A DNA stretch of 64,000 bases from Polaribacter haliotis (GTDB lineage Bacteria > Bacteroidota > Bacteroidia > Flavobacteriales > Flavobacteriaceae): contig NZ_CP061813.1 of NCBI RefSeq assembly GCF_014784055.1, forward strand, positions 1,622,001 through 1,686,000. The letters run 5' to 3'. Shown one piece after another: positions 521-64,000 of the stretch. Made by a program: the position numbers and the translations under genes. Under the pieces are notes generated by a model. It was given only the letters and a program-made list of their open reading frames with translations. It made no database searches and was not told where the DNA came from. Each line of letters opens with the position of its first letter. Within the stretch, counting starts at the first letter, position 1.

Positions 521-1102
521 TTGAATAAAGTTGTTGTTTTTTGTGGCTCAAGTTTGGGTTTTAATCCTATTTATAAAGAAAGTGCGATTGAACTGGGAAA
601 TTATTTTGCGGAAAATAATATCAGTTTAGTTTTTGGCGGTGGAAAAGTAGGAATGATGGGTGTTCTAGCAGACACCATTTTAGCTAAAAACGGTGAAGTT
701 ATTGGCGTAATTCCGAGCTTATTACACAAAGAAGAAGTAATTCATATTGGTGTAAAAAACATGACCGTTTGCAAAACCATGAGCGAACGCAAAGTAATTA
801 TGAGCAAATTAGTTGATGGTTATATTACACTTCCTGGAGGTTTTGGAACTTTAGATGAACTCTTCGAAGCACTAACTTTAAGTCAATTACAAATTGAACA
901 AAAACCAGTTGGATTGCTAAATGTAAATGGTTTTTTTGATGCCATTTTATTGCAATTAAATAAAATGGTTCAAGAAGGATATCTCAAACAAGCAAATAGA
1001 AATATGTTAATCGTTGGCACTTCTGTAACTGAATTAATGCAGAAAATGACCAATTACAAAGCACCGGAAATAGTACATATTATTAACAAAGTTGTAAAGT
1101 AA
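521..1102 (+). CDS. LOG-family nucleoside 5'-monophosphate phosphoribohydrolase (TIGR00730)
   Basis: This 193-aa protein has the Lysine decarboxylase-like/LOG fold signatures: FGGGKVGMMG (residues 38-47), MSERK (87-91) and PGGFGTLDE (105-113). Family members release the base from nucleoside 5'-monophosphates (cytokinin activation in plants); the physiological substrate in flavobacteria is uncertain. The start is TTG at 521, because no in-frame ATG precedes the first strand of the Rossmann fold. The stop overlaps the start of folP by one base (TAATG), which implies translational coupling. Confidence 0.85.
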   Translation: MNKVVVFCGSSLGFNPIYKESAIELGNYFAENNISLVFGGGKVGMMGVLADTILAKNGEVIGVIPSLLHKEEVIHIGVKNMTVCKTMSERKVIMSKLVDGYITLPGGFGTLDELFEALTLSQLQIEQKPVGLLNVNGFFDAILLQLNKMVQEGYLKQANRNMLIVGTSVTELMQKMTNYKAPEIVHIINKVVK

Positions 1103-1926
1103 TGACCATAAATTGCAAGGGAACTTTATTCGATTTATCATCACCAAAAGTGATGGGAATTTTAAATATTACGCCAGATTCCTTCTTTGATGGTGGCAAA
1201 TATAAAAATGAAGTAGAAATTCTAAATCAGACAGAAAAAATGCTTTTGGGAGGTGCGACTTTTATAGATGTTGGTGCCTATTCTTCTAGACCTGGAGCAA
1301 TTCATATTTCCGAAGAACAAGAATTACAAAGAATTATTCCTGTAATTAATTTATTGGTTAAGAATTTCCCTGAAATTGTTATTTCTGTAGATACTTTTAG
1401 AAGCAAAATTGCCAAAGAAACTGTAGAAAATGGTGTTGCAATTGTAAACGATATTTCTGGTGGAAAAATGGATGATAAAATGTTTGAAACCATAGCAAAA
1501 CTTCAGGTTCCATATATTTTAATGCACATGTTGGGTACTCCTCAAAACATGCAAAAAGATCCAATTTATAAAGATGTAACTCAAGAAATTATTTCTTTTT
1601 TTGCAGAACAAATTCATAAATTACACCAACTAAAACTAAATGATATTATTATAGATGTCGGTTTTGGTTTTGGGAAAACTGTTGCTCATAATTTTGAAAT
1701 TTTGAAGAATTTAGACCTTTTTAAAAGTTTAGATGCACCAATTTTAGCCGGAATTTCACGTAAATCAATGTTGTATAAAACATTAGATATTTCTGCACAA
1801 GAAGCTCTAAATGCCACCACTTCTGCAAATACAATTGCACTTTTAAATGGCGCAAATATTTTACGCGTTCACGATGTAAAAGAAGCTGTTGAAGCTGTAA
1901 AAATTGTAAATCAGGTTTCTTTTTAG
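1102..1926 (+). CDS. folP: Dihydropteroate synthase
   Basis: This 274-aa cytosolic enzyme condenses p-aminobenzoate with dihydropterin pyrophosphate in folate synthesis. Visible family motifs in order: ILNITPDSFFDGG (about residues 20-32), DVGAYSSRPGA (canonical D-x-G-x-x-S-T-R-P-G), SVDTFR, NDISGG, GFGFGKT and ISRKS. Length is normal. It overlaps the LOG gene by one base. Its TAG stop codon (1924-1926) is itself the first three bases of an intergenic structured repeat. Confidence 0.95.
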   Translation: MTINCKGTLFDLSSPKVMGILNITPDSFFDGGKYKNEVEILNQTEKMLLGGATFIDVGAYSSRPGAIHISEEQELQRIIPVINLLVKNFPEIVISVDTFRSKIAKETVENGVAIVNDISGGKMDDKMFETIAKLQVPYILMHMLGTPQNMQKDPIYKDVTQEIISFFAEQIHKLHQLKLNDIIIDVGFGFGKTVAHNFEILKNLDLFKSLDAPILAGISRKSMLYKTLDISAQEALNATTSANTIALLNGANILRVHDVKEAVEAVKIVNQVSF

Positions 1927-2009
1927 GAGCTATTACCAGCTTTCCACTATATCTTTTTGTTGAAAAAACAAAAAGGATGTCGTTTCAATCTGGGCTAAAC
2001 TTGCTTGCC
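1924..2009 (+). repeat. Stop-adjacent structured repeat, copy 1
   Basis: The element opens with TAGGAGCTATTACCAGC, continues to a perfect 9-bp hairpin (CTTTTTGTT at 1953-1961, AACAAAAAG at 1967-1975, 5-nt loop) and ends with CAATCTGGGCTAAACTTG. Its first three bases are the folP stop codon. Two further copies occur at 60462-60550 and, on the other strand, at 63866-63958, each directly after a gene on the same strand. Confidence 0.8.
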
Positions 2010-2016
2010 AACTTCC

Positions 2017-2162
2017 TTGTCATTCCTGCGAAAGCAGGAATCTATAATAGATAAATAAACCAGCTCTTAATAATTTGTCTAAGCAATTACTTCTTTTTAA
2101 AAGTTAATTTTTTGAGTACTTATAAATGTTAGTTTGGATTCCTGCCTTCGCAGGAATGACAA
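2017..2162. repeat. Inverted pair of REP-like palindromes
   Basis: A 26-bp arm at 2017-2042 starting TTGTCATTCCTGCG reappears inverted at 2136-2162 with one mismatch. Each arm is itself a palindrome (CCTGC...GCAGG). The 93 bp between them show no gene. This is the arrangement of a BIME or MITE. Together with the preceding repeat it fills most of the 369-bp gap between folP and exbD. Confidence 0.8.
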
Positions 2163-18053: not shown

Positions 18054-19271
18054 ATGAGTGAACACAAGTTTACGTTTATAGATTTATTTGCAGGTTGTGG
18101 TGGTTTAAGCGAAGGTTTTTATAAGGAAGATTTTAAAAGTTTAACTCATGTAGAAATTGATTCTCATGCATGTAAAACTTTAAGGACTAGAATGGAACAT
18201 TATGGTTATTCAGATAACGAAATTTCGGTTATAGAAGAAGACATCAAGTCTGAAAATATTGTAGAATTAATTGAAAATGAAATAAGGAACAATGAAGTTG
18301 ATGTATTAATTGGAGGACCACCTTGTCAAAGTTTTTCTTCTTTAGGAAGAGCAAAAGACCAAAATGGAATGAGTGATGATCCTAGAAACTATTTATTTGA
18401 AAGTTATGAAAAAGTTCTAAATCATTTTAAGCCAAAATTATTTGTATTTGAAAACGTAACAGGACTTCTGACCGCTAAATTAGGTAAAGGAAAAACAATT
18501 GACCTAATTTTAAAAAGATTAGGAAAAAATTATAAGTTAATAAAAGATCCTAGCCAAATGGTACTTAACTCTTCTGAATATGGTGTTCCACAGATTAGAA
18601 AAAGAATTATACTTATTGGCGTAAGAAATGATATTAAAGTTCATCCAAAAGAAATATATGATAATATTATAAAGACTCATTATACTACAGATACTGTAGA
18701 AAAAGATAAAAAAAACAAAGAGAAATTTGTTACTGTTAAAGAGGCAATAGGAGATTTACCAGCAATTAAACCTGGAGAAGGTAGTAAGAAAACAGGACAC
18801 TTTATAAAAAAATGGAACCCTTTTTTAGAAAAAATAAGAAACAAAAAGAGTAATTATATTGATGATCACATTTCTAGGAAGCATAATAAAAAAGATCGTT
18901 TACGCTATATTGAAATGAGTAAAAACAAATGGACTTTTAAAGAATTATTAGAAAAAAAGCCCTCATTGAATCATGCTAAAGCTCGTGTTTTTAATAATAG
19001 TTACGTAGTCCAATTTTGGGATAAACCTTCTAGAACTATTATTGCTCATTTATATAAAGATGGAAACCAATTTATTCATCCTGACCATAAACAAGAAAGA
19101 ACAATAACACCGAGAGAAGCTGCTAGATTACAATCATTCCCTGATAATTTTATTTTTGAGGGTTCACGAACACAACAATACAAACAAATTGGAAATGCTG
19201 TGCCTCCTTTAATGGCGGAAGCAATAGCAAAAAGTATCAAACTTACATTAGGCAAAATTAAGGATGTTTAA
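18054..19271 (+). CDS. DNA (cytosine-5) methyltransferase 1 of a LlaJI-type R-M system
   Basis: A 405-aa C5 methyltransferase with all major motifs: I IDLFAGCGGLSEGF (residues 9-22), IV GGPPCQSFS with catalytic Cys91, VI FENVTGL, VIII PQIRKRIILIGV, IX around SRTIIAHL and X QIGNAVPPLMAEAI. The variable target-recognition region lies between VIII and IX (about residues 230-310). It opens a four-gene operon and overlaps the second methyltransferase by 8 bp. Two methyltransferases suggest an asymmetric site with one enzyme per strand; the sequence recognised cannot be read. Confidence 0.93.
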   Translation: MSEHKFTFIDLFAGCGGLSEGFYKEDFKSLTHVEIDSHACKTLRTRMEHYGYSDNEISVIEEDIKSENIVELIENEIRNNEVDVLIGGPPCQSFSSLGRAKDQNGMSDDPRNYLFESYEKVLNHFKPKLFVFENVTGLLTAKLGKGKTIDLILKRLGKNYKLIKDPSQMVLNSSEYGVPQIRKRIILIGVRNDIKVHPKEIYDNIIKTHYTTDTVEKDKKNKEKFVTVKEAIGDLPAIKPGEGSKKTGHFIKKWNPFLEKIRNKKSNYIDDHISRKHNKKDRLRYIEMSKNKWTFKELLEKKPSLNHAKARVFNNSYVVQFWDKPSRTIIAHLYKDGNQFIHPDHKQERTITPREAARLQSFPDNFIFEGSRTQQYKQIGNAVPPLMAEAIAKSIKLTLGKIKDV

Positions 19272-20787
19272 AAATATTAATGAAATTAAAACTTTAAAAG
19301 AAAAGAAGTTTTTTGTAGAAAAAATAAATTTACATTATAAAATTCTTCTTGCTTTTTCACAAAAAAATAATTTGAAATTTGATGTGCAATCAATTAAAAA
19401 CATAGATCTTAATACAATAAAGAGAATTATACAACTTAATGTAATCACAAATAAAGAAGATTTAACTAAACTTAATAAAGTTTTAAAAACTGAAGATTTT
19501 AATAATTTTATTTCTTCTGTAAATTTCAGTTTAATTAATAAAAAGGAAATTGGCAATATACTTGATAATTTAGATCCTATTAAAAGAAATAAGAAACAAA
19601 ACTTAAAGAAGAATGAGGAAAAACCCAAATTAGTTGATTTCTTTTGTGGTGCAGGTGGTTTAAGTTTAGGCTTTATCCAAGAAGGTTTTCATATCGATTT
19701 AGCCAATGACTATGAGGATGTTTGTATACAAACTTATCGATATAATCATCCTGAAGTACCAGAAAACAGAATTATTCTTGGTGACATTAGAAATGTAGTT
19801 AATGATATAGATGAATTAGTAACTTCAGATATTGATGGTGTTGTTGGTGGACCACCTTGTCAAGGTTTTAGCTCTGCAAATCAGCAACGAATGATTGATG
19901 ATCCTAGAAATGAACTATACAAATATTTTATAAAAGCTGTTGAAAAAATTACACCAAAATTTGTTATAATGGAAAATGTACGAGGAATGCTTCCTTATGC
20001 AGAACAAGTTGCTGAAGATTATAATAATATTGTTTCCATAAAAAATAAAAAAAAATATACTTATTCTATTGCTTATAAAGTTTTAGTGTCAGATGATTTT
20101 GGTGTTGCGCAGAAAAGACATCGATTAATTTTCATTGCTTTAAGGAATGATATAGTTGGTAAAAATAATATTACACCTAAAGAAATATTTGAACAAATTG
20201 AGGTTTCTAATTCTAAAAATAAAAGGCATATATTAAAAGATGCATTAGATTATATAAAACCTTTAGAAGCTCCTAGGGTAAAAAATATGACAGAAGTTGA
20301 TGATGAAGTAACTGGTAAAAAGATTGATTTTAATTTATTTAAAGGCACAGAAAATAGTTATTTGAATTCGATTAATAACAAAAGAAAAATCGATTTTGTT
20401 TTTAATCACAAAGCAAGATTTACAAATGATGTAAATTTAGAAATTTATAAAAGATTAGATCAAGGAAATGATGGAACTAATTCTAAAATTGCGGATATTA
20501 TGCCCTATAAGCATAGAAATCATGTATTTAAAGATAAATATTATAAGTTAGTAGCTAATAAGCCTAGTAGAACGATAACTGCTCATTTAAAGATGGATTG
20601 TCATTCTCATATACATCCATTCCAAACTAGAAGTATTACACCTAGAGAAGCAGCAAGGATACAATCATTTCCTGATGATTATGTTTTTTTAGGAGCTTAT
20701 CTTAAGACATATATGCAAATAGGAAATGCAGTTCCACCAATGATGGCAAGAGGTGTTGCAAGAATTATTAAAAATTATATTTTATAA
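19264..20787 (+). CDS. DNA (cytosine-5) methyltransferase 2 of a LlaJI-type R-M system
   Basis: A 507-aa C5 methyltransferase. Residues 1-120 are a Lys/Asn/Ile-rich extension without a recognised motif. The catalytic part follows: I VDFFCGAGGLSLGF (from 124), IV GGPPCQGFSS with catalytic Cys199, VI MENVRGML, VIII AQKRHRLIFIAL, IX PSRTITAHL and X QIGNAVPPMMARGV. It differs clearly from the first enzyme in the target-recognition part. It starts inside the end of the first gene and lies 5 bp before the McrB-like gene. Confidence 0.93.
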   Translation: MFKNINEIKTLKEKKFFVEKINLHYKILLAFSQKNNLKFDVQSIKNIDLNTIKRIIQLNVITNKEDLTKLNKVLKTEDFNNFISSVNFSLINKKEIGNILDNLDPIKRNKKQNLKKNEEKPKLVDFFCGAGGLSLGFIQEGFHIDLANDYEDVCIQTYRYNHPEVPENRIILGDIRNVVNDIDELVTSDIDGVVGGPPCQGFSSANQQRMIDDPRNELYKYFIKAVEKITPKFVIMENVRGMLPYAEQVAEDYNNIVSIKNKKKYTYSIAYKVLVSDDFGVAQKRHRLIFIALRNDIVGKNNITPKEIFEQIEVSNSKNKRHILKDALDYIKPLEAPRVKNMTEVDDEVTGKKIDFNLFKGTENSYLNSINNKRKIDFVFNHKARFTNDVNLEIYKRLDQGNDGTNSKIADIMPYKHRNHVFKDKYYKLVANKPSRTITAHLKMDCHSHIHPFQTRSITPREAARIQSFPDDYVFLGAYLKTYMQIGNAVPPMMARGVARIIKNYIL

Positions 20788-20792
20788 GAGTT

Positions 20793-22253
20793 ATGAAAAT
20801 AGAAAATTTTAAAAAGGAATTATTTGACTCAAATTTGGGAACTGCTGGTATGCATGATCGTTATATTACCATACCAAAAAAAGCAAAACCAGAATTGTTT
20901 TTTGGAAAACCTCCAAGAGCAATTACTCTTAAAGATAAATGTTTTGGTGTTGAATATAAATTACCTTTTAAACATGAATCTAATGGAGAATATAGATTAA
21001 CACAACTTGGTGTCTTTTTTGATAAACATAATGCTAAAGTAGGTGACGAAATTTTTGTTGAAAACAGCGATTCTGGTGATTTTAGCATTTCTTTAATTAG
21101 GAATTCCAATTCATCAAGATTTATGGACTTCGTTTGTGACTGTATAAATCATAATTTGAATTTTACTTCAGAACTAATTACAAGATACGTTTCATCATTA
21201 ACAACAAAACCATTTGTTTTATTAAGTGGCTTGTCTGGTTCTGGTAAAACAAAACTAGCACAAAGTTTTGCGCAATGGATTAGCGATAGTACCGAGCAAT
21301 ATTGTATTGTTCCTGTTGGTGCAGATTGGACAAATAGAGAGCCATTATTAGGTTATGTAAATGCACTTGAACCTGAAAAATATATTTTACCAGAAAACAA
21401 AGCTTTAGAATTATTAATAAAAGCAAATAAAGATGAAAACAAACCTTATTTTTTAATTTTAGACGAAATGAACTTGAGTCATGTAGAACGATATTTTGCA
21501 GACTTTTTAAGTGTTATGGAATCTAAAGATAAATTCAAATTACATAGTTCTAATAAGCCATTAGATGGTGGAAATGGCCTAAAAGTAAAAAGAGAATATG
21601 GTTGGCCAAAAAACCTATTTGTTGTAGGAACTGTAAATATAGACGAAACTACGTACATGTTTAGTCCTAAAGTTTTAGATAGAGCCAACGTTATTGAGTT
21701 TAGAATTGGTGAGAATGAAATGAAAGATTATCTCTCTGAACCAAGAACTGTTACAGATTTAAACAGAGAAGGAAAAGGAATGGGAGAAAGTTTTGTGTCT
21801 ATTGCCAAAGAAGAATCAAAAGCAAATCCGCAAGAGTTAAAAGATGCCTTGGAAGCTTTCTTTAAAGCTTTAAAAGTAGTTGGCGCAGAATTTGGTTATA
21901 GAACTGCTTCCGAAATTCAAACTTTATTTAGTAAAATAGACACCATAAATCCAGAATATATTTCTAAAATAAACGATAAAATAGATTTTGCTATTATGCA
22001 AAAGCTATTACCAAAATTACATGGAAGTAGAAGTAAGTTGGTACCAATTCTAAAAACGTTAGCGAGTTTGTGTTACGAAGTTGAATCTGACAAAAAACTA
22101 ACTGAAAAAGAAATAGAAAAAAATATAGACACTATTTTTGAAAGAAAGGGAAAAGAAAAAAAAGTAATAAAATACCCGATTTCTTTAGAGAAAATAGAAC
22201 GTATGTATAATAATGTAATTACTAATGGTTTTACAAGTTATGCAGAAGCGTAA
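20793..22253 (+). CDS. McrB-like AAA+ GTPase with B3-like DNA-binding N-terminus (LlaJI R1 type)
   Basis: The 486-aa motor subunit has two parts. Residues 1-105 resemble a B3/EcoRII-like DNA-binding barrel (DRYITIPKKAKPELFFG; YRLTQLGVFFDKHNAKVGDEI), the specificity domain known for LlaJI R1. Residues 140-400 are an McrB AAA+ domain: Walker A GLSGSGKT (146-153), Walker B LILDEMN (221-227), sensor VNIDET (281-286) and VLDRA. McrB-class motors hydrolyse GTP and translocate or loop DNA for a partner nuclease, encoded 6 bp downstream. Confidence 0.85.
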   Translation: MKIENFKKELFDSNLGTAGMHDRYITIPKKAKPELFFGKPPRAITLKDKCFGVEYKLPFKHESNGEYRLTQLGVFFDKHNAKVGDEIFVENSDSGDFSISLIRNSNSSRFMDFVCDCINHNLNFTSELITRYVSSLTTKPFVLLSGLSGSGKTKLAQSFAQWISDSTEQYCIVPVGADWTNREPLLGYVNALEPEKYILPENKALELLIKANKDENKPYFLILDEMNLSHVERYFADFLSVMESKDKFKLHSSNKPLDGGNGLKVKREYGWPKNLFVVGTVNIDETTYMFSPKVLDRANVIEFRIGENEMKDYLSEPRTVTDLNREGKGMGESFVSIAKEESKANPQELKDALEAFFKALKVVGAEFGYRTASEIQTLFSKIDTINPEYISKINDKIDFAIMQKLLPKLHGSRSKLVPILKTLASLCYEVESDKKLTEKEIEKNIDTIFERKGKEKKVIKYPISLEKIERMYNNVITNGFTSYAEA

Positions 22254-22259
22254 TCTAAT

Positions 22260-24614
22260 ATGAAAGATTCACTTCCTTTTAAGAGAATAGAATTTAAGCA
22301 GGGATTGTTTCTTACAATTACCCCAATAGGAGATCATGCTAAAATTTACGAAATTGATGCATCAGAAGCAGAAGAGTTTGGTGAGGCAGCAGTTCAAATT
22401 TTAGAATCTAAAAGGTATGATTTTGAGTTTTCGGATAAAGGTTTCGAAATAATTTGTAGAGGTGATATTGTAAAATCATTAAAACATAAAAACCCAAGTA
22501 GAGGTATTATTGCACCTGGCAATTATGTTGGAACTTTAGAGTTAATTATTAAAAGTGAAGAAGAAAATATAAAGTGTTATTTAGAGATTTTAGCAACAAA
22601 ATTTGATGCTGATGATGATTTCGACATTAGTTATCGAAAGAATTATCGCTCTATGATTGAAGATATTACAGAGAAATGTACAGAACTGTTAATGCAGTCT
22701 AATTCTCCTGTAAACCAATATTTTGAGCCAGATTTTACAAAAGATAACAAAACGATTTATCAGAAATTTAGTTTTGTAAAATCAGTTATAGATAGTAATG
22801 AATTCGAAGAATCTTTATTGCGAATTTTTTCTGCTCCAAAAACAAATTGGGTTTCAAAAGAAGAAAAAGTAGATATTAGAAGTTTAAAAAGAGTTACTAA
22901 TAGTAATTTAAAAGAAATTTTAAGAGGAACAAATAGAATTCCACTTCCCAAAAGTCATCGTTTATCAATTCATACTAAATTAGAAAGTTTACCCGCTAAA
23001 ATTAATAGCTATAAACAAGAATCTTCTTTAGACAATCCAGAGAACAGATTTATTAAACATGCTTTACAAGAATACTTACAATTCTGTAAAAACTGTAGCA
23101 GCGTTTTCGAAAATGATTCTAAAGACGAAAAAGAAGCAAATTTTTTAGCAAATAAAATTGAAGGATATTTAAATCATTCTTTTTTTAAAGAAATATCGAG
23201 ACCAACAACTTTAAAACTAAACTCGCCAACTTTACAAAGAAAAAGTGGTTACAGACAAATATTAAAATCTTGGTTAATGTTCGATTTAGCTTCTAAATTA
23301 ACTTGGACAGGTGGACAAGAAGATGTTTATGAAGCAGGGAAAAGAGACATTGCTACGTTGTATGAATATTGGTTATTTTTTGTTCTGTACGATTTATTTA
23401 GAAAGCAATTTAACTTAACAGAACTTTCTCACAAAGGCGAACCTTACACTGATTTATTCGAAAAAACTAAAAACGGATTAAACTTAATTATAAAGTCAGG
23501 AAGACATACTGCATTAAAAGGAGATACCGTAATTAAAAATAGAGGGTTAAGTTTTAAGTTTTCATTCAATAGAACTTTTTCTGGTTATAAAGATAGTTTT
23601 CCCAAAGCAGGAAGTTGGACAACTTCCATGAGACCAGATTATACTTTATCTATTTGGCCAAAAGAACTGAAAGAAGCCAAAGCAGAAGTAGAAGAACAAA
23701 TTGTTCATATTCATTTTGATGCAAAGTATAAAGTGAATCATTTTAAAGTTAAAACGAATAGTAAGAAAAAGAAGCTAGCTGAAGAAGAAGAGTTTGAAGA
23801 ACTAAACAAAATAAAAAAGCAAGAACGAGCAGGTGTTTTTAAAAATGCTGATTTGTTAAAAATGCATGCTTATAAAGATGCTATTAGAAGAACAGGAGGC
23901 GCTTATATATTATATCCTGGAAATACGAATAAAAAATTTAAAGGTTTTCATGAACTTATTCCCGGTTTAGGTGCTTTTTCAGTAAATCCGAAAAACGTAA
24001 AAGAAGACAAAGCTAACTTATTAGTATTTATAGAAAAAGTAATAGATAATTTGGTTAATAGAGCTTCTCAAAGAGAAAACATTGCTTCTAAAACTTATGA
24101 AATAACTAAAGGAGGAAAAACAGAATCTCTAAATGAAACAATGCCAGAATATATTAATGAGAAAAAATTAATTCCTGATGAAACTTATGTTTTAGTGGGT
24201 TACTATAATCCTCCCAAAAATGGTTTTTCTCAAATAGAATGGATTGAAAAAGAAAAACTATATAACTTTAGAATTGAAAATAAGCAAAGTGGTATTAAGT
24301 TAGGTTTTAAAGAGTCATCTGCAAAATATTTGCTTCTCCACACAAAAGGTGAGAATTCTTCAAATAATTTATGGGAAATAGTTAGTGATGGTCCACAAAT
24401 CCATTCTCGTAAAACTATGATTAAAAATGGATATAAAAATCCTAGTCAAGACTATTATTTAGTGTTAAAAATTAAAAAAGTGGACATTACTTTATTTGGA
24501 AATAAAAAATGGAAGTTTAAAAGTTTAGAAAATTTTAGGGACAATCGTCAATCACCTTATCCTTTTACAACTACTCTGACTGAATTAATGCAACCTAAAA
24601 TAAGTAAAGAATAA
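22260..24614 (+). CDS. DUF2357 / PD-(D/E)XK restriction nuclease subunit (LlaJI R2 / McrC-like)
   Basis: The 784-aa protein has a DUF2357 N-terminal and central region and a nuclease core with RPDYTLSIW (Asp460) and HFDAKYK (Asp487-Ala-Lys489), a PD-(D/E)xK metal site. After about residue 630 comes a further domain (KLIPDETYVLVGYY, YLLLHTKG, IWEIV-like LWEIVSDGP, NPSQDYYLVLKI) that looks PUA/EVE-like; this reading is tentative. It is the partner of the McrB-like motor. A strong terminator follows immediately, ending the island. Confidence 0.82.
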   Translation: MKDSLPFKRIEFKQGLFLTITPIGDHAKIYEIDASEAEEFGEAAVQILESKRYDFEFSDKGFEIICRGDIVKSLKHKNPSRGIIAPGNYVGTLELIIKSEEENIKCYLEILATKFDADDDFDISYRKNYRSMIEDITEKCTELLMQSNSPVNQYFEPDFTKDNKTIYQKFSFVKSVIDSNEFEESLLRIFSAPKTNWVSKEEKVDIRSLKRVTNSNLKEILRGTNRIPLPKSHRLSIHTKLESLPAKINSYKQESSLDNPENRFIKHALQEYLQFCKNCSSVFENDSKDEKEANFLANKIEGYLNHSFFKEISRPTTLKLNSPTLQRKSGYRQILKSWLMFDLASKLTWTGGQEDVYEAGKRDIATLYEYWLFFVLYDLFRKQFNLTELSHKGEPYTDLFEKTKNGLNLIIKSGRHTALKGDTVIKNRGLSFKFSFNRTFSGYKDSFPKAGSWTTSMRPDYTLSIWPKELKEAKAEVEEQIVHIHFDAKYKVNHFKVKTNSKKKKLAEEEEFEELNKIKKQERAGVFKNADLLKMHAYKDAIRRTGGAYILYPGNTNKKFKGFHELIPGLGAFSVNPKNVKEDKANLLVFIEKVIDNLVNRASQRENIASKTYEITKGGKTESLNETMPEYINEKKLIPDETYVLVGYYNPPKNGFSQIEWIEKEKLYNFRIENKQSGIKLGFKESSAKYLLLHTKGENSSNNLWEIVSDGPQIHSRKTMIKNGYKNPSQDYYLVLKIKKVDITLFGNKKWKFKSLENFRDNRQSPYPFTTTLTELMQPKISKE

Positions 24615-58220: not shown

Positions 58221-58279
58221 TTGTTTTTATTTTTCAGCAACAAACTATTTCATCTTTGTACCATAAAAAAACTAAAACG

Positions 58280-60457
58280 ATGAAACGTATTCTATTTTTA
58301 TTAATTACACTTTGCCAATTTTCTTTAATTGCACAAACCACAGTTTCAGGAAAAGTTACAGATTCTAAAAACAATCCTATTTTAGGAGCAAACGTTTATT
58401 TAGATGGCACTTACGATGGAACCTCAACAAACGAAAAAGGGGAATTTAGTTTCAAAACAGAAGAATCAGGAAATCAAACGTTGGTAATTTCCTTTGTTTC
58501 TTTTGAAACTTATACAAAAACGGCAAATGTAAAAACCTTAAATAATTTAAAAATAAAATTGCGAGATGATGTAAATTCTTTAGATGCAGTAGTAATAAAT
58601 GCAGGAACTTTTGAAGCTGGAGAAAAAGGCAAAGTAACCGTTTTAAAACCTATGGATATTGTAACCACAGCAAGTGCTTTGGGCGATTTTGTAGGCGCTT
58701 TACAAACATTACCAGGAACTGCTGCTGTTGGCGAAGATGGACGATTATTTGTAAGAGGTGGAGAAGCAGAAGAAACGCAAATTTTTATTGATGGCGCAAG
58801 AGTTTTTACGCCATTTACACCAACTACAAACAACATTCCTACAAGAGGAAGATATTCTCCATTTTTATTCCAAGGAATTACGTTTTCTACAGGTGGTTAT
58901 TCTGCTGAATATGGACAAGCATTATCTAGTGTTTTATCACTAACAACTATAGACGAACCAGATCAAGAAAAAACAGACATCTCTTTAATGACTGTTGGTT
59001 TGGGAGTTGGAAACACACAAAAATGGGACAAAAGTTCTTTTAGCATTAATACTTCTTACATCAATTTAGCTCCTTACAATGCCATTTTTAAAGATAGAAA
59101 TACGTGGAATAAACCTTTTCAATCTGCAAATGGAGAAATGGTTTTTAGACAAAAATTCAAAGACGATTCTATGCTAAAACTATACAGTGCATATAGTTAT
59201 TCAGATTTTGATGTGATACAAGATGACATTAATTTTGATGACGGTTTGCGTTTCGGATTGCAAAATAGAAACTTATATTTTAATGCATCTTACAAAAATA
59301 AATTTGGCAACAATTGGAAATATGAAACCGCTTTAAGTTACACAAACGACAATACGAATGTTAATTTTATGGAGGATAAAATAAATAGTAACGACAATTC
59401 GTACCACTTTAAAGCCAAATTAAAAAAACGTTTTTCAAGTAGATTTCGTTTAAATTTTGGAGCAGAATATTTTATAACCAATTACGACGAAAGTTATACT
59501 CCAAATAACAGCAATAAATTCGATTATGGTTTCGATAATAATATTTTTGCTTCTTTTATAGAAACCGATATTTTCTTCTCGAAAAACTTGGCTGCAAAAA
59601 TTGGAGTAAGAGCAGAAAATTCTGAATTGTTAAACGAATTTACAATCTCCCCAAGAACTTCAATTTCTTATAAATCAGGTAAAAATTCGCAGTTTTCTTT
59701 GGCTTATGGTCAGTTTTACCAAAATCCGAATAACGAATATTTAAAATTCAGTCAAAATTTAAAAGCACAAAACACATCGCATTTAATTGCCAATTATCAA
59801 TCTGTAAAACAAGGTCAAATATTTAGAATCGAAGCTTATTATAAAGACTATAATAGTTTGGTAAAATTCGATAATAATTCAACAAATTTTAATGATAATC
59901 AGCCTAATTTTAATTCAACTTTTAACAATAATGGAACTGGATTTGCCAAAGGAATAGATGTTTTTTGGAGACAAAATGGCAAAATAAAAAATACCGATTA
60001 TTGGGTTTCCTACTCCTATTTAGATACTGAAAGAGACTACAGAAATTACCCAAATACTGCAAGACCAAATTTTGCATCGAAACATAACTTATCTGTTGTT
60101 GCCAAACATTTTATTACAGATTGGAAAAGTCAGGTTGGTTTGAGTTATCAATTTGCCTCTGGCAGAATTTACACAAACCCGAACAAAGCTGGTTTCTTAA
60201 ATAGTCAGACTAAAAACTTCAACAATTTAAGTTTTAATTGGGCGTATTTATTAGATCAACAAAAAATATTATATTTCTCTGTAAACAACGTTTTAGGCAC
60301 AAAAAATATTTTTGGTTATAACTATAAAAACACCCCAAACATGAATGGAAATTTCGAAAGACAAGCAAGAATTCCCAATGCAGATAGTTTCTTTTTCGTA
60401 GGTTTCTTCTGGACAATTAGCGACGATAAAACCTCAAATCAATTAGATAACTTATAA
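58280..60457 (+). CDS. TonB-dependent outer-membrane receptor
   Basis: A 725-aa receptor from ATG 58280 (an in-frame TTG at 58256 lies in the promoter). Signal peptide MKRILFLLITLCQF... ends SLIAQ. A carboxypeptidase-like regulatory domain follows (TVSGKVTDSKNNPILGANVY), then the plug (GEDGRLFVRGGEAEETQIF) and a beta-barrel ending FFWTISDD with aromatic residues near the C-terminus. Ligand unknown. No SusD partner is present. Regulated with the DUF2141 gene by the shared direct repeats. Confidence 0.87.
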   Translation: MKRILFLLITLCQFSLIAQTTVSGKVTDSKNNPILGANVYLDGTYDGTSTNEKGEFSFKTEESGNQTLVISFVSFETYTKTANVKTLNNLKIKLRDDVNSLDAVVINAGTFEAGEKGKVTVLKPMDIVTTASALGDFVGALQTLPGTAAVGEDGRLFVRGGEAEETQIFIDGARVFTPFTPTTNNIPTRGRYSPFLFQGITFSTGGYSAEYGQALSSVLSLTTIDEPDQEKTDISLMTVGLGVGNTQKWDKSSFSINTSYINLAPYNAIFKDRNTWNKPFQSANGEMVFRQKFKDDSMLKLYSAYSYSDFDVIQDDINFDDGLRFGLQNRNLYFNASYKNKFGNNWKYETALSYTNDNTNVNFMEDKINSNDNSYHFKAKLKKRFSSRFRLNFGAEYFITNYDESYTPNNSNKFDYGFDNNIFASFIETDIFFSKNLAAKIGVRAENSELLNEFTISPRTSISYKSGKNSQFSLAYGQFYQNPNNEYLKFSQNLKAQNTSHLIANYQSVKQGQIFRIEAYYKDYNSLVKFDNNSTNFNDNQPNFNSTFNNNGTGFAKGIDVFWRQNGKIKNTDYWVSYSYLDTERDYRNYPNTARPNFASKHNLSVVAKHFITDWKSQVGLSYQFASGRIYTNPNKAGFLNSQTKNFNNLSFNWAYLLDQQKILYFSVNNVLGTKNIFGYNYKNTPNMNGNFERQARIPNADSFFFVGFFWTISDDKTSNQLDNL

Positions 60458-60461
60458 TTAT

Positions 60462-60550
60462 TAGGAGCTATTTCCAGCTTTCCATTTTATCTTTTTGTTG
60501 AAAAAACAAAAAGGATGTCATTTCAATCTGGGCTAGACTTGTTTGCAAAC
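60462..60550 (+). repeat. Stop-adjacent structured repeat, copy 2
   Basis: TAGGAGCTATTTCCAGC starts 4 nt after the TonB receptor stop. It has the same 9-bp hairpin stem as copy 1 (CTTTTTGTT/AACAAAAAG) and the closing block CAATCTGGGCTAGACTTG. It is the first part of the 373-bp gap before the DUF2141 gene; the rest of this gap holds the next repeat and the direct-repeat promoter. Confidence 0.8.
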
Positions 60551-60639
60551 TAATTGCCATAATCAAAAAAAGACTGTCCTTTAAAATATTACTGAAATTA
60601 AAAGTTATTTTAATTGAAAGTAGCTTGCGAAGCAAATAA

Positions 60640-63865: not shown

Positions 63866-63958
63866 GCAAACAAGTTTAGCCCTGATTGAACGGTTTGTTT
63901 GAGCTCTTTTTTCTTTTTCAGAAAAAAAGCGAGTAGTGAAAGCAGGAAATAGCTCCTA
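63866..63958 (-). repeat. Stop-adjacent structured repeat, copy 3
   Basis: On the minus strand TTTAGGAGCTATTTCCTGC begins 6 nt after the SDR stop and ends with CAATCAGGGCTAAACTTG. The hairpin between is different in sequence (CTTTTTTTCT/AGAAAAAAG with one bulge) but keeps its stem. It fills about half of the 207-bp gap between the SDR and dioxygenase genes. Confidence 0.8.
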
Positions 63959-63964
63959 AAAAAA

Positions 63965-64000
63965 CTACAAAGATTTTGTTCTTCCACCATCTACAGGAAC
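63965..64000 (-). CDS. C-terminal end of an SDR-family oxidoreductase (gene continues right)
   Basis: Only the last 11 codons and TAG are inside the window; the peptide reads VPVDGGRTKSL. The VDGG ending is typical of short-chain dehydrogenases. An SDR gene beside 3-hydroxyanthranilate dioxygenase and ACMSD is common in flavobacterial kynurenine operons. Confidence 0.65.
   Translation of the reverse strand, partial: VPVDGGRTKSL

Follow-up and report, generated by a model that had tools for sequence, protein, structure and literature searches.

What is the repeat that stands three times in the 64,000-nt stretch of the Polaribacter haliotis genome analyzed here (hereafter the window; NZ_CP061813.1, positions 1,622,001 to 1,686,000), each time close behind the stop codon of an unrelated gene and on that gene's strand? 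The initial annotation had read it as a transcribed element of the 3′ untranslated region (3′-UTR), possibly a terminator, a stabilizer or a regulator of mRNA end processing. We examined its identity, structure, placement, distribution and history.

Three copies of Flavo-1 in the window

Copy 1 (positions 1915–2024, plus strand; A-type core, CCAG/CTGG outer helix) lies behind the dihydropteroate synthase gene folP (1102–1926, plus strand; Pfam Pterin_bind, 3e-71), and the stop codon of folP, TAG at 1924–1926, is the TAG of the element itself. Copy 2 (60453–60562, plus strand; A-type core, CCAG/CTGG) follows an open reading frame for a TonB-dependent receptor (58256–60457, plus strand; Pfam TonB_dep_Rec_b-barrel and Plug), with the TAA stop at 60455–60457 and the first block of the repeat at 60462. 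Copy 3 (63967–63850, minus strand; C-type core, CCTG/CAGG) follows the gene of an SDR-family oxidoreductase (Pfam adh_short), of which only the 3′ end (63965–64000, minus strand; TAG at 63967–63965) is within the window and which continues beyond it (268 aa at L142:6966-7772); its first block begins at 63958. The coordinates, strands and shared blocks reported for the three copies, their distance of 0 to 6 nt from the stop and the assignment of the three genes thus all held on inspection. The extents given here are those matched by R1, a covariance model that we built with all three window copies among its training rows; they take in a 5′ T-run and a 3′ tail, ACTTGTTTGC, so that the conserved element is longer than first described.

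Copies 1 and 2 match Rfam family RF01705, Flavo-1, on the minus strand (68.7 bits, E 6e-13, 1929–2000, and 70.8 bits, E 2e-13, 60467–60538, respectively). Copy 3 scores 40.6 bits, below the 42-bit cut-off, and reaches 128.7 bits with R1, which was trained partly on it. The resemblance to RF01705 is, judged by these scores, far above chance, and the three repeats are identified by sequence similarity as real copies of Flavo-1, copy 3 being joined to the family via R1.

Flavo-1 was described by Weinberg et al. in 2010 as a probable RNA, not cis-regulatory, in the part of that work devoted to it (PMC2864571). A 2021 transcriptome study of Flavobacterium psychrophilum (PMC9723704) states, in its passages on the family, that several 5′ transcribed regions coincide with Flavo-1, that matches occur both in sense and in antisense, many of them outside transcribed regions, and that there is no clue to function. 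Our literature search found no paper on Flavo-1 placement. The initial annotation was right that similar sequences have no assigned function; the family nonetheless has a name. What is already known, then, is that name; what is new is to see its placement, its subfamilies and the in-place exchange of cores together, as set out below.

Other features were seen in the window. Directly behind Flavo-1 copy 1 lies an inverted pair of another palindromic repeat, of the TTGTCATTCCTGCGAAAGCAGGAATC type (2017–2049 and 2130–2162). Two further repeats occur as pairs, 60654–60701/61998–62045 and 41214–41249/63223–63258; one of the two ends in GTCGAAATGACATTTA and one has CTTCCCAAAGGGAAG, and pieces similar to them adjoin Flavo-1 sites in relatives. 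A likely restriction or defense operon at 18054–24614 comprises two tandem C5-cytosine methyltransferases, an AAA-domain protein (PADLOC PDC-M26A) and a DUF2357-PDDEXK_7 nuclease.

A conserved, covarying hairpin

The element measures about 110–120 bp, and up to about 200 bp where the apical loop is long. It starts with T(T/A)GRAGC, and its parts follow each other in the order T-run, GRAGC, helix AGC/GCT, one-sided 5-nt bulge (TATTT), helix CCWG/CW′GG, internal loop, short variable helix, core and apical hairpin. The latter is T/A-rich, and its loop tolerates long inserts. The core comes in two types: form A reads GGAGCTATTTCCWGCTTTCCACTATATC..GGATGTCGTTTCAATCWGGGCTAAAC, and form C has CACTACTCGC..GAGCTCAAACAAACCGTTC within the same arms. 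Core and plan recur in a sister family, B, whose outer helix is GCGTT/AACGC (GGGCGTT..AACGC). The apical loop can hold other hairpin-type repeats (GTCATTGCGAAG..CAATGAC; ATGCTGAATTTATTTCAGCAT..), as at L203, L195, L199, L231 and L232; such repeats seem to insert preferentially at the hairpin tip.

The predicted pairing was assessed in a plain MAFFT alignment of 30 A and C copies from the P. haliotis genome. The 14 proposed pairs are 99.5% standard, and the covariation score, 0.208 versus 0.066 in shuffled alignments, was reached by none of 500 shuffles and exceeded every slid control; the numbers of varying pairs and of pair types in these copies were not above those of the shuffles. One covarying pair uses all four Watson-Crick forms (CG 12, AU 9, GC 7, UA 2; 30/30 copies), and a second is UA in 17 copies and AU in 13. 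In the wider sample of 126 copies used for placement (see below), the outer variable pair W-W′ is complementary in 125, and the outer pair, the variable helix and the core type assort freely.

Because the covarying pairs are nearly all Watson-Crick, with almost no wobble, they do not tell which strand folds, and a strand call on wobble pairs, which hold almost no information, was dropped. So was a call on folding energy, as two sets of copies contradict each other: A-type cores fold slightly better in sense (−13.9 versus −13.2 kcal/mol on the other strand; n = 36, p = 0.03), whereas over all short A and C copies it is the other strand that is more stable (−16.6 versus −14.7 kcal/mol). The former value speaks for an RNA on the gene strand; the latter, and the lack of wobble in the two covarying pairs of the 30 copies, speak against one.

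Flavo-1 mostly faces gene ends, probably both inside and outside transcripts

Placement was analyzed for 126 of 131 distinct A and C copies, namely those with at least 900 nt on both sides, using open-reading-frame calls rather than annotation and a simple script as terminator finder. Of these copies, 109 follow a gene on their own strand, and 74 lie within 25 nt of a sense stop codon. Measured from the stop to the outermost helix (AGC), the spacing is exactly 10 nt in 34 copies; in another 10 it is exactly 1 nt, the gene there ending with the TAG of the element. A same-strand stop is found −5 to 20 nt from AGC in 69 copies, and 20 copies have an opposite-strand stop at an equally short distance from their tail end. 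Between co-directional neighbors, 63 copies are sense and 12 antisense, which would give p of about 2e-9 if the copies were independent, which they are not, as the sample pools orthologous copies from mainly four genomes. For all forms together (A, B and C), the nearest upstream ORF of at least 70 aa is on the same strand in 46 of the 59 matches from the P. haliotis genome. Family B is less strict (27/41 behind a same-strand gene; co-directional neighbors 19 to 11).

The initial annotation had stated that the repeat always begins at a stop codon on the sense strand and had called for distance and strand to be tabulated. The tabulated bias is far from random, and the rule stands as a strong tendency; it is not universal, and "always" fails for the 17 of 126 copies that lie behind a gene on the other strand, 12 of them antisense to both neighbors and five between divergent genes.

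Terminator-like sites divide the copies further. None of the 74 stop-adjacent copies is preceded by a terminator-like hairpin (4.2 in shuffles), and 21 of them have a terminator-like site within 250 nt downstream (7.3 in shuffles), arguing that some copies lie within the transcript. Conversely, of the 35 sense copies lying further than 25 nt from a stop, 22 have a terminator-like hairpin ahead of them (shuffles predict 2.0), the T-run of which begins 9–31 nt before AGC; the 42 nt preceding these distant copies fold with a mean z of −3.2. Such copies would be outside the 3′-UTR of that gene except by read-through. A terminator-like site precedes only two of the 17 other-strand copies (1.6 in shuffles). 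The outer pair is intact regardless of position, in 73/74 stop-adjacent copies, 35/35 further sense copies and 17/17 copies behind other-strand genes. The element therefore tends toward the end of a reading frame or just past the end of a transcript, with its T-run facing the gene, and its structure is independent of its being in the mRNA of the upstream gene.

These data bear on the proposal that Flavo-1 is a transcribed 3′-UTR RNA on the gene strand, i.e., a stabilizer, a processing signal or a Rho-dependent or otherwise unusual terminator. The strand bias, the preferred 10-nt spacing, the position of terminator-like sites around stop-adjacent copies, the covarying structure and the conservation of same-type orthologues (see below) all agree with it. 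A pure 3′-UTR function leaves the copies behind terminators and behind other-strand genes uncovered: with 22 of 35 distant sense copies in the former position, 17 in the latter and pairing equally intact, the hairpin is not kept only as the 3′-UTR of the upstream gene. The occurrence of F. psychrophilum matches in both orientations and often outside transcripts, as reported in the passages cited above, and the range of copy numbers within the genus also count against the proposal, which we consider possible, if rather unlikely.

Copy number varies widely among relatives

The 3.80-Mb P. haliotis genome, a single contig, holds at least 59 Flavo-1 matches on both strands, 42 of them over the Rfam cut-off, among the best 150 of 1137 first-look candidates. 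Judged by folP, the named species nearest to it is Polaribacter aestuariivivens, with 92% identity at the protein level. Counts for other genomes are lower bounds, taken from the best 36 candidates per genome for relatives and the best 15 for the phylum. On this basis, matches were found in 66 of 117 relatives, ranging within the genus from 0 to at least 36 per genome, with none among the best 36 candidates of each of five 99%-complete genomes of the genus (G002, G003, G024, G034 and G048). Across the phylum sample, 44 of 296 genomes and 22 of 139 genera had matches among the best 15 candidates; in one genus of the same family, all 17 listed genomes had at least 15. Phages and plasmids yielded no Flavo-1 match and viral contigs no exact pattern match, and carriage by phages or plasmids was rejected as an explanation.

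Sites are shared between species and cores are exchanged in place

The three window sites were followed in relatives. Of 22 named folP loci, 18 have no copy behind the gene; intact sense copies occur at two, and the remaining two carry a degenerate copy and a copy in the opposite orientation, respectively. For the TonB receptor, 20 stretches were fetched and 19 relatives have the gene: 12 carry a sense element right behind the stop and one a remnant, six have no element in the stretch examined, and the occupants differ in type between relatives. The SDR site, compared in 17 relatives, holds only A or C elements in sense in six, only B elements in antisense in four, B and A in tandem in two, and neither in five. 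In the tandem cases (L201 and L210), an antisense B-type copy is directly followed by a sense A-type copy, which is degenerate in L201; an ancestral B and A pair with losses is the simplest reading of this site. Different types at one site are also seen across species. Empty sites occur in relatives with flanks too diverged to fix the junctions, and among the compared sites we found no fresh empty site with closely similar flanks.

Comparison of the P. haliotis genome with that of a near relative (G001) paired 25 sites, of which 13 hold the same element and 12 differ in core, outer pair or loop. The G001 stretches were mostly chosen for holding copies, so that the pairs give no count of gains and losses, and seven of the 25, with upstream flanks less than 93% identical, may include non-orthologues. 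In the 13 same-type pairs, 14 of 1067 positions (1.3%) differ within the element, versus 64 of 577 (11%) over the 50 nt that follow. More than 90% element identity with few gaps was the criterion for these pairs, and the copies also had to match the search motif, which biases the contrast in favor of the element; the differences are still far below that limit. This low divergence fits a selected RNA function equally well.

Restricting the comparison to the 18 shared sites with upstream flanks at least 93% identical (93–99%) left six with different occupants. Four show an A core against a C core (folP, L005, L058 and L049), one differs in outer pair and loop (L142) and one in the apical loop only (L045). 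The clearest case is L049, where both flanks are 98–99% identical and the middle alone differs, C core versus A core; the C core string is identical to that of another copy, L048, 0.6 Mb away. At most of the other differing sites the downstream flank has changed as well, so that whole-copy replacement is possible there. Thus, Flavo-1 sites are common to several species and often unoccupied in others, and core replacement takes place in situ, in nested units that keep both sides of each helix matched.

A REP-like repeat as the best explanation

These observations fit a repeat whose copies are inherited at their sites, are often lost, and are renewed when cores pass from one copy to another. Our preferred explanation, to which we give about an even chance, is that Flavo-1 is a REP-like hairpin repeat of Flavobacteriia, non-autonomous and located at gene ends, with copies that exchange their cores. 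The hairpin would be kept as folded single-stranded DNA, and breaks near its tip would be repaired from other copies; exchange tracts would then start in the middle of the element and end in the conserved arms, and no resident Y1 transposase would be needed today. The conserved arms, at only about 25 bp, are short for ordinary homologous recombination, which counts against repair-based exchange. Copies near a stop may act as a 3′ hairpin on terminating ribosomes or on mRNA decay, by analogy with the REPs of Escherichia coli. The latter stall ribosomes when located within 15 nt of a stop, according to an article citing earlier work (PMC12306157), and by the same token stop-adjacent Flavo-1 copies may well affect the upstream mRNA, whether or not copies elsewhere do. 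Gene conversion gives no explanation of the strand bias, which needs selection or targeted insertion. Several causes could make the T-run face gene ends: a 3′ hairpin may be selected for, the element may enter at targeted positions, or useless DNA separating it from the gene may have been lost; all three are possible.

A bolder proposal is that Flavo-1 is selfish or domesticated hairpin DNA that marks gene ends, placed or kept one-way behind stops and terminators, with its core exchanged in place by a putative machinery. We hold this to be doubtful. If true, such DNA would be a mobile or concerted-evolution element separate from the RAYT/REP system, MITEs and integrons, and structurally equivalent yet different hairpins would succeed one another at one site.

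A stand-alone regulatory RNA, transcribed from the strand modelled by Rfam and antisense to the upstream gene, is improbable in our judgment. Rfam and the original description, in its part on Flavo-1 (PMC2864571), place the probable RNA on that strand, and it is the strand that folds more stably over all short copies. Rfam's choice of strand came apparently from the alignment and not from expression. Many similar copies per genome, with none found in some relatives, are also difficult to reconcile with such an RNA, and the gene-end rule would be left unexplained.

Less probable again is a true REP or REPIN moved by a resident RAYT or IS200/605 (Y1) transposase. Its attraction lies in the dispersed extragenic hairpins and in the TAGGAGC start of Flavo-1, which resembles the start, GTAGGAGC, of the REPs of Pseudomonas and Xanthomonas as given in the portion of the REP literature used here. 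Some copy-rich genomes do encode Y1 proteins (eight in G013, seven in G062, six in G025, four each in G035 and G037). The P. haliotis genome has no Y1_Tnp protein, nor have nine others with at least 19 matches (G001, G004, G008, G028, G042, G043, G045, G052 and G059), whereas several are encoded in some genomes with 0–3 matches listed (G002, G034 and G055). At 20 Y1 loci, mostly of RAYT size (186–221 aa), Flavo-1 lies within about 2.5 kb at four and on both sides at none. On the grounds of this absence and of the lack of two-sided flanking, RAYT/Y1 was rejected as the mobilizer.

Inspection by eye of three fully listed genomes (G000, the P. haliotis genome, G001 and G028) found no MITE-type autonomous relative, which would carry a transposase gene between the same ends. 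Paired left and right halves are spaced 55–140 nt, and the few unpaired halves do not neighbor each other at kilobase distance; an autonomous parent with an internal gene was rejected for lack of distant left and right halves. We also discarded the idea that the inverted pair at G000 1608961/1610018 encloses a recombinase gene, since the gene there encodes a 243-aa protein that is not a recombinase and that we take to be DJ-1/PfpI-like.

That Flavo-1 copies are attC-like recombination sites of an integron system, as their position and orientation and the presence elsewhere in this genome of an attC-like array with its own tyrosine recombinase might suggest, is highly improbable, since the integron integrase model TIGR02249 was over cut-off in none of 78 genus genomes, the copies are dispersed over the genome rather than arrayed, the outer dyad of family B, GTT..AAC, is the reverse of the attC AAC..GTT, and the array's own sites are a different sequence of ~140 bp. 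An integron integrase was therefore rejected as the mover, there being none over cut-off and different sites in the array beside the weaker match. Neither RAYT transposases nor integron integrases explain Flavo-1.

The array, outside the window at L271:7812-17326 (about 2003811–2013325 of G000:C1), is integron-like in its own right. A gene that is presumably polynucleotide phosphorylase-like precedes a 389-aa tyrosine recombinase (Pfam Phage_integrase), after which come seven hairpin repeats of ~140–150 bp, several with attC-like ends (TAACAC..CGTTAGGC), among ORFs, including one for an HNH protein and one for a GNAT protein. Many of the 78 genus genomes have a listed recombinase with the same kind of split, under-cut-off TIGR02249 match, and ~120- to 150-nt self-repeats are present in several of those recombinase stretches.

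Through its placement bias, its three interchangeable subfamilies and core swapping between genomes whose flanks are 97% identical, a family that has been an orphan in Rfam since 2010 now raises testable questions: which strand and which molecule folds, whether the element acts on the upstream mRNA, what exchanges the cores and why copy number varies within a genus. Flavo-1 is a caution, too: an Rfam family that covaries can turn out to be a repeat, with a structure maintained outside its seeming transcripts.

Comparison with known systems

Relative to the RF01705 entry, copies 1 and 2 are above the gathering score, and copy 3 and many C- and B-type copies are near it; the Rfam model covers 76 nt and represents the opposite strand. 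The text on Flavo-1 in the original description (PMC2864571) mentions neither the gene-end rule nor the T-run and tail, the A, C and B subfamilies or in-place core exchange.

With intrinsic terminators, Flavo-1 shares a hairpin and a T-run at gene ends. It lacks their layout because its T-run precedes the hairpin, which is followed by GGGCTAAACTTG, and many copies stand behind a separate terminator-like site.

The attC sites of integrons are hairpins right behind the stop codon, on the gene strand and with a variable tip, features that Flavo-1 has in common with them. Flavo-1 differs in having no array, no integron integrase over cut-off and a reversed dyad order, and its copies were found without the RYYYAAC..GTTRRRY end boxes.

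The nearest likeness is to the REP, BIME and REPIN sequences of enterobacteria and pseudomonads, which are extragenic, dispersed, hairpin-forming and often close behind stop codons; with at least 59 matches in its own genome, Flavo-1 is likewise a dispersed extragenic palindrome in many copies. REPs are 20–40 bp long, mostly with a GTAG or CGTC tag (PMC3733652), and are accompanied by RAYTs. Flavo-1 has neither that size nor the tag and no association with a RAYT (Y1_Tnp) was found; unlike REPs, it is about 115 bp long, is built of several stacked helices and lies mostly on one strand.
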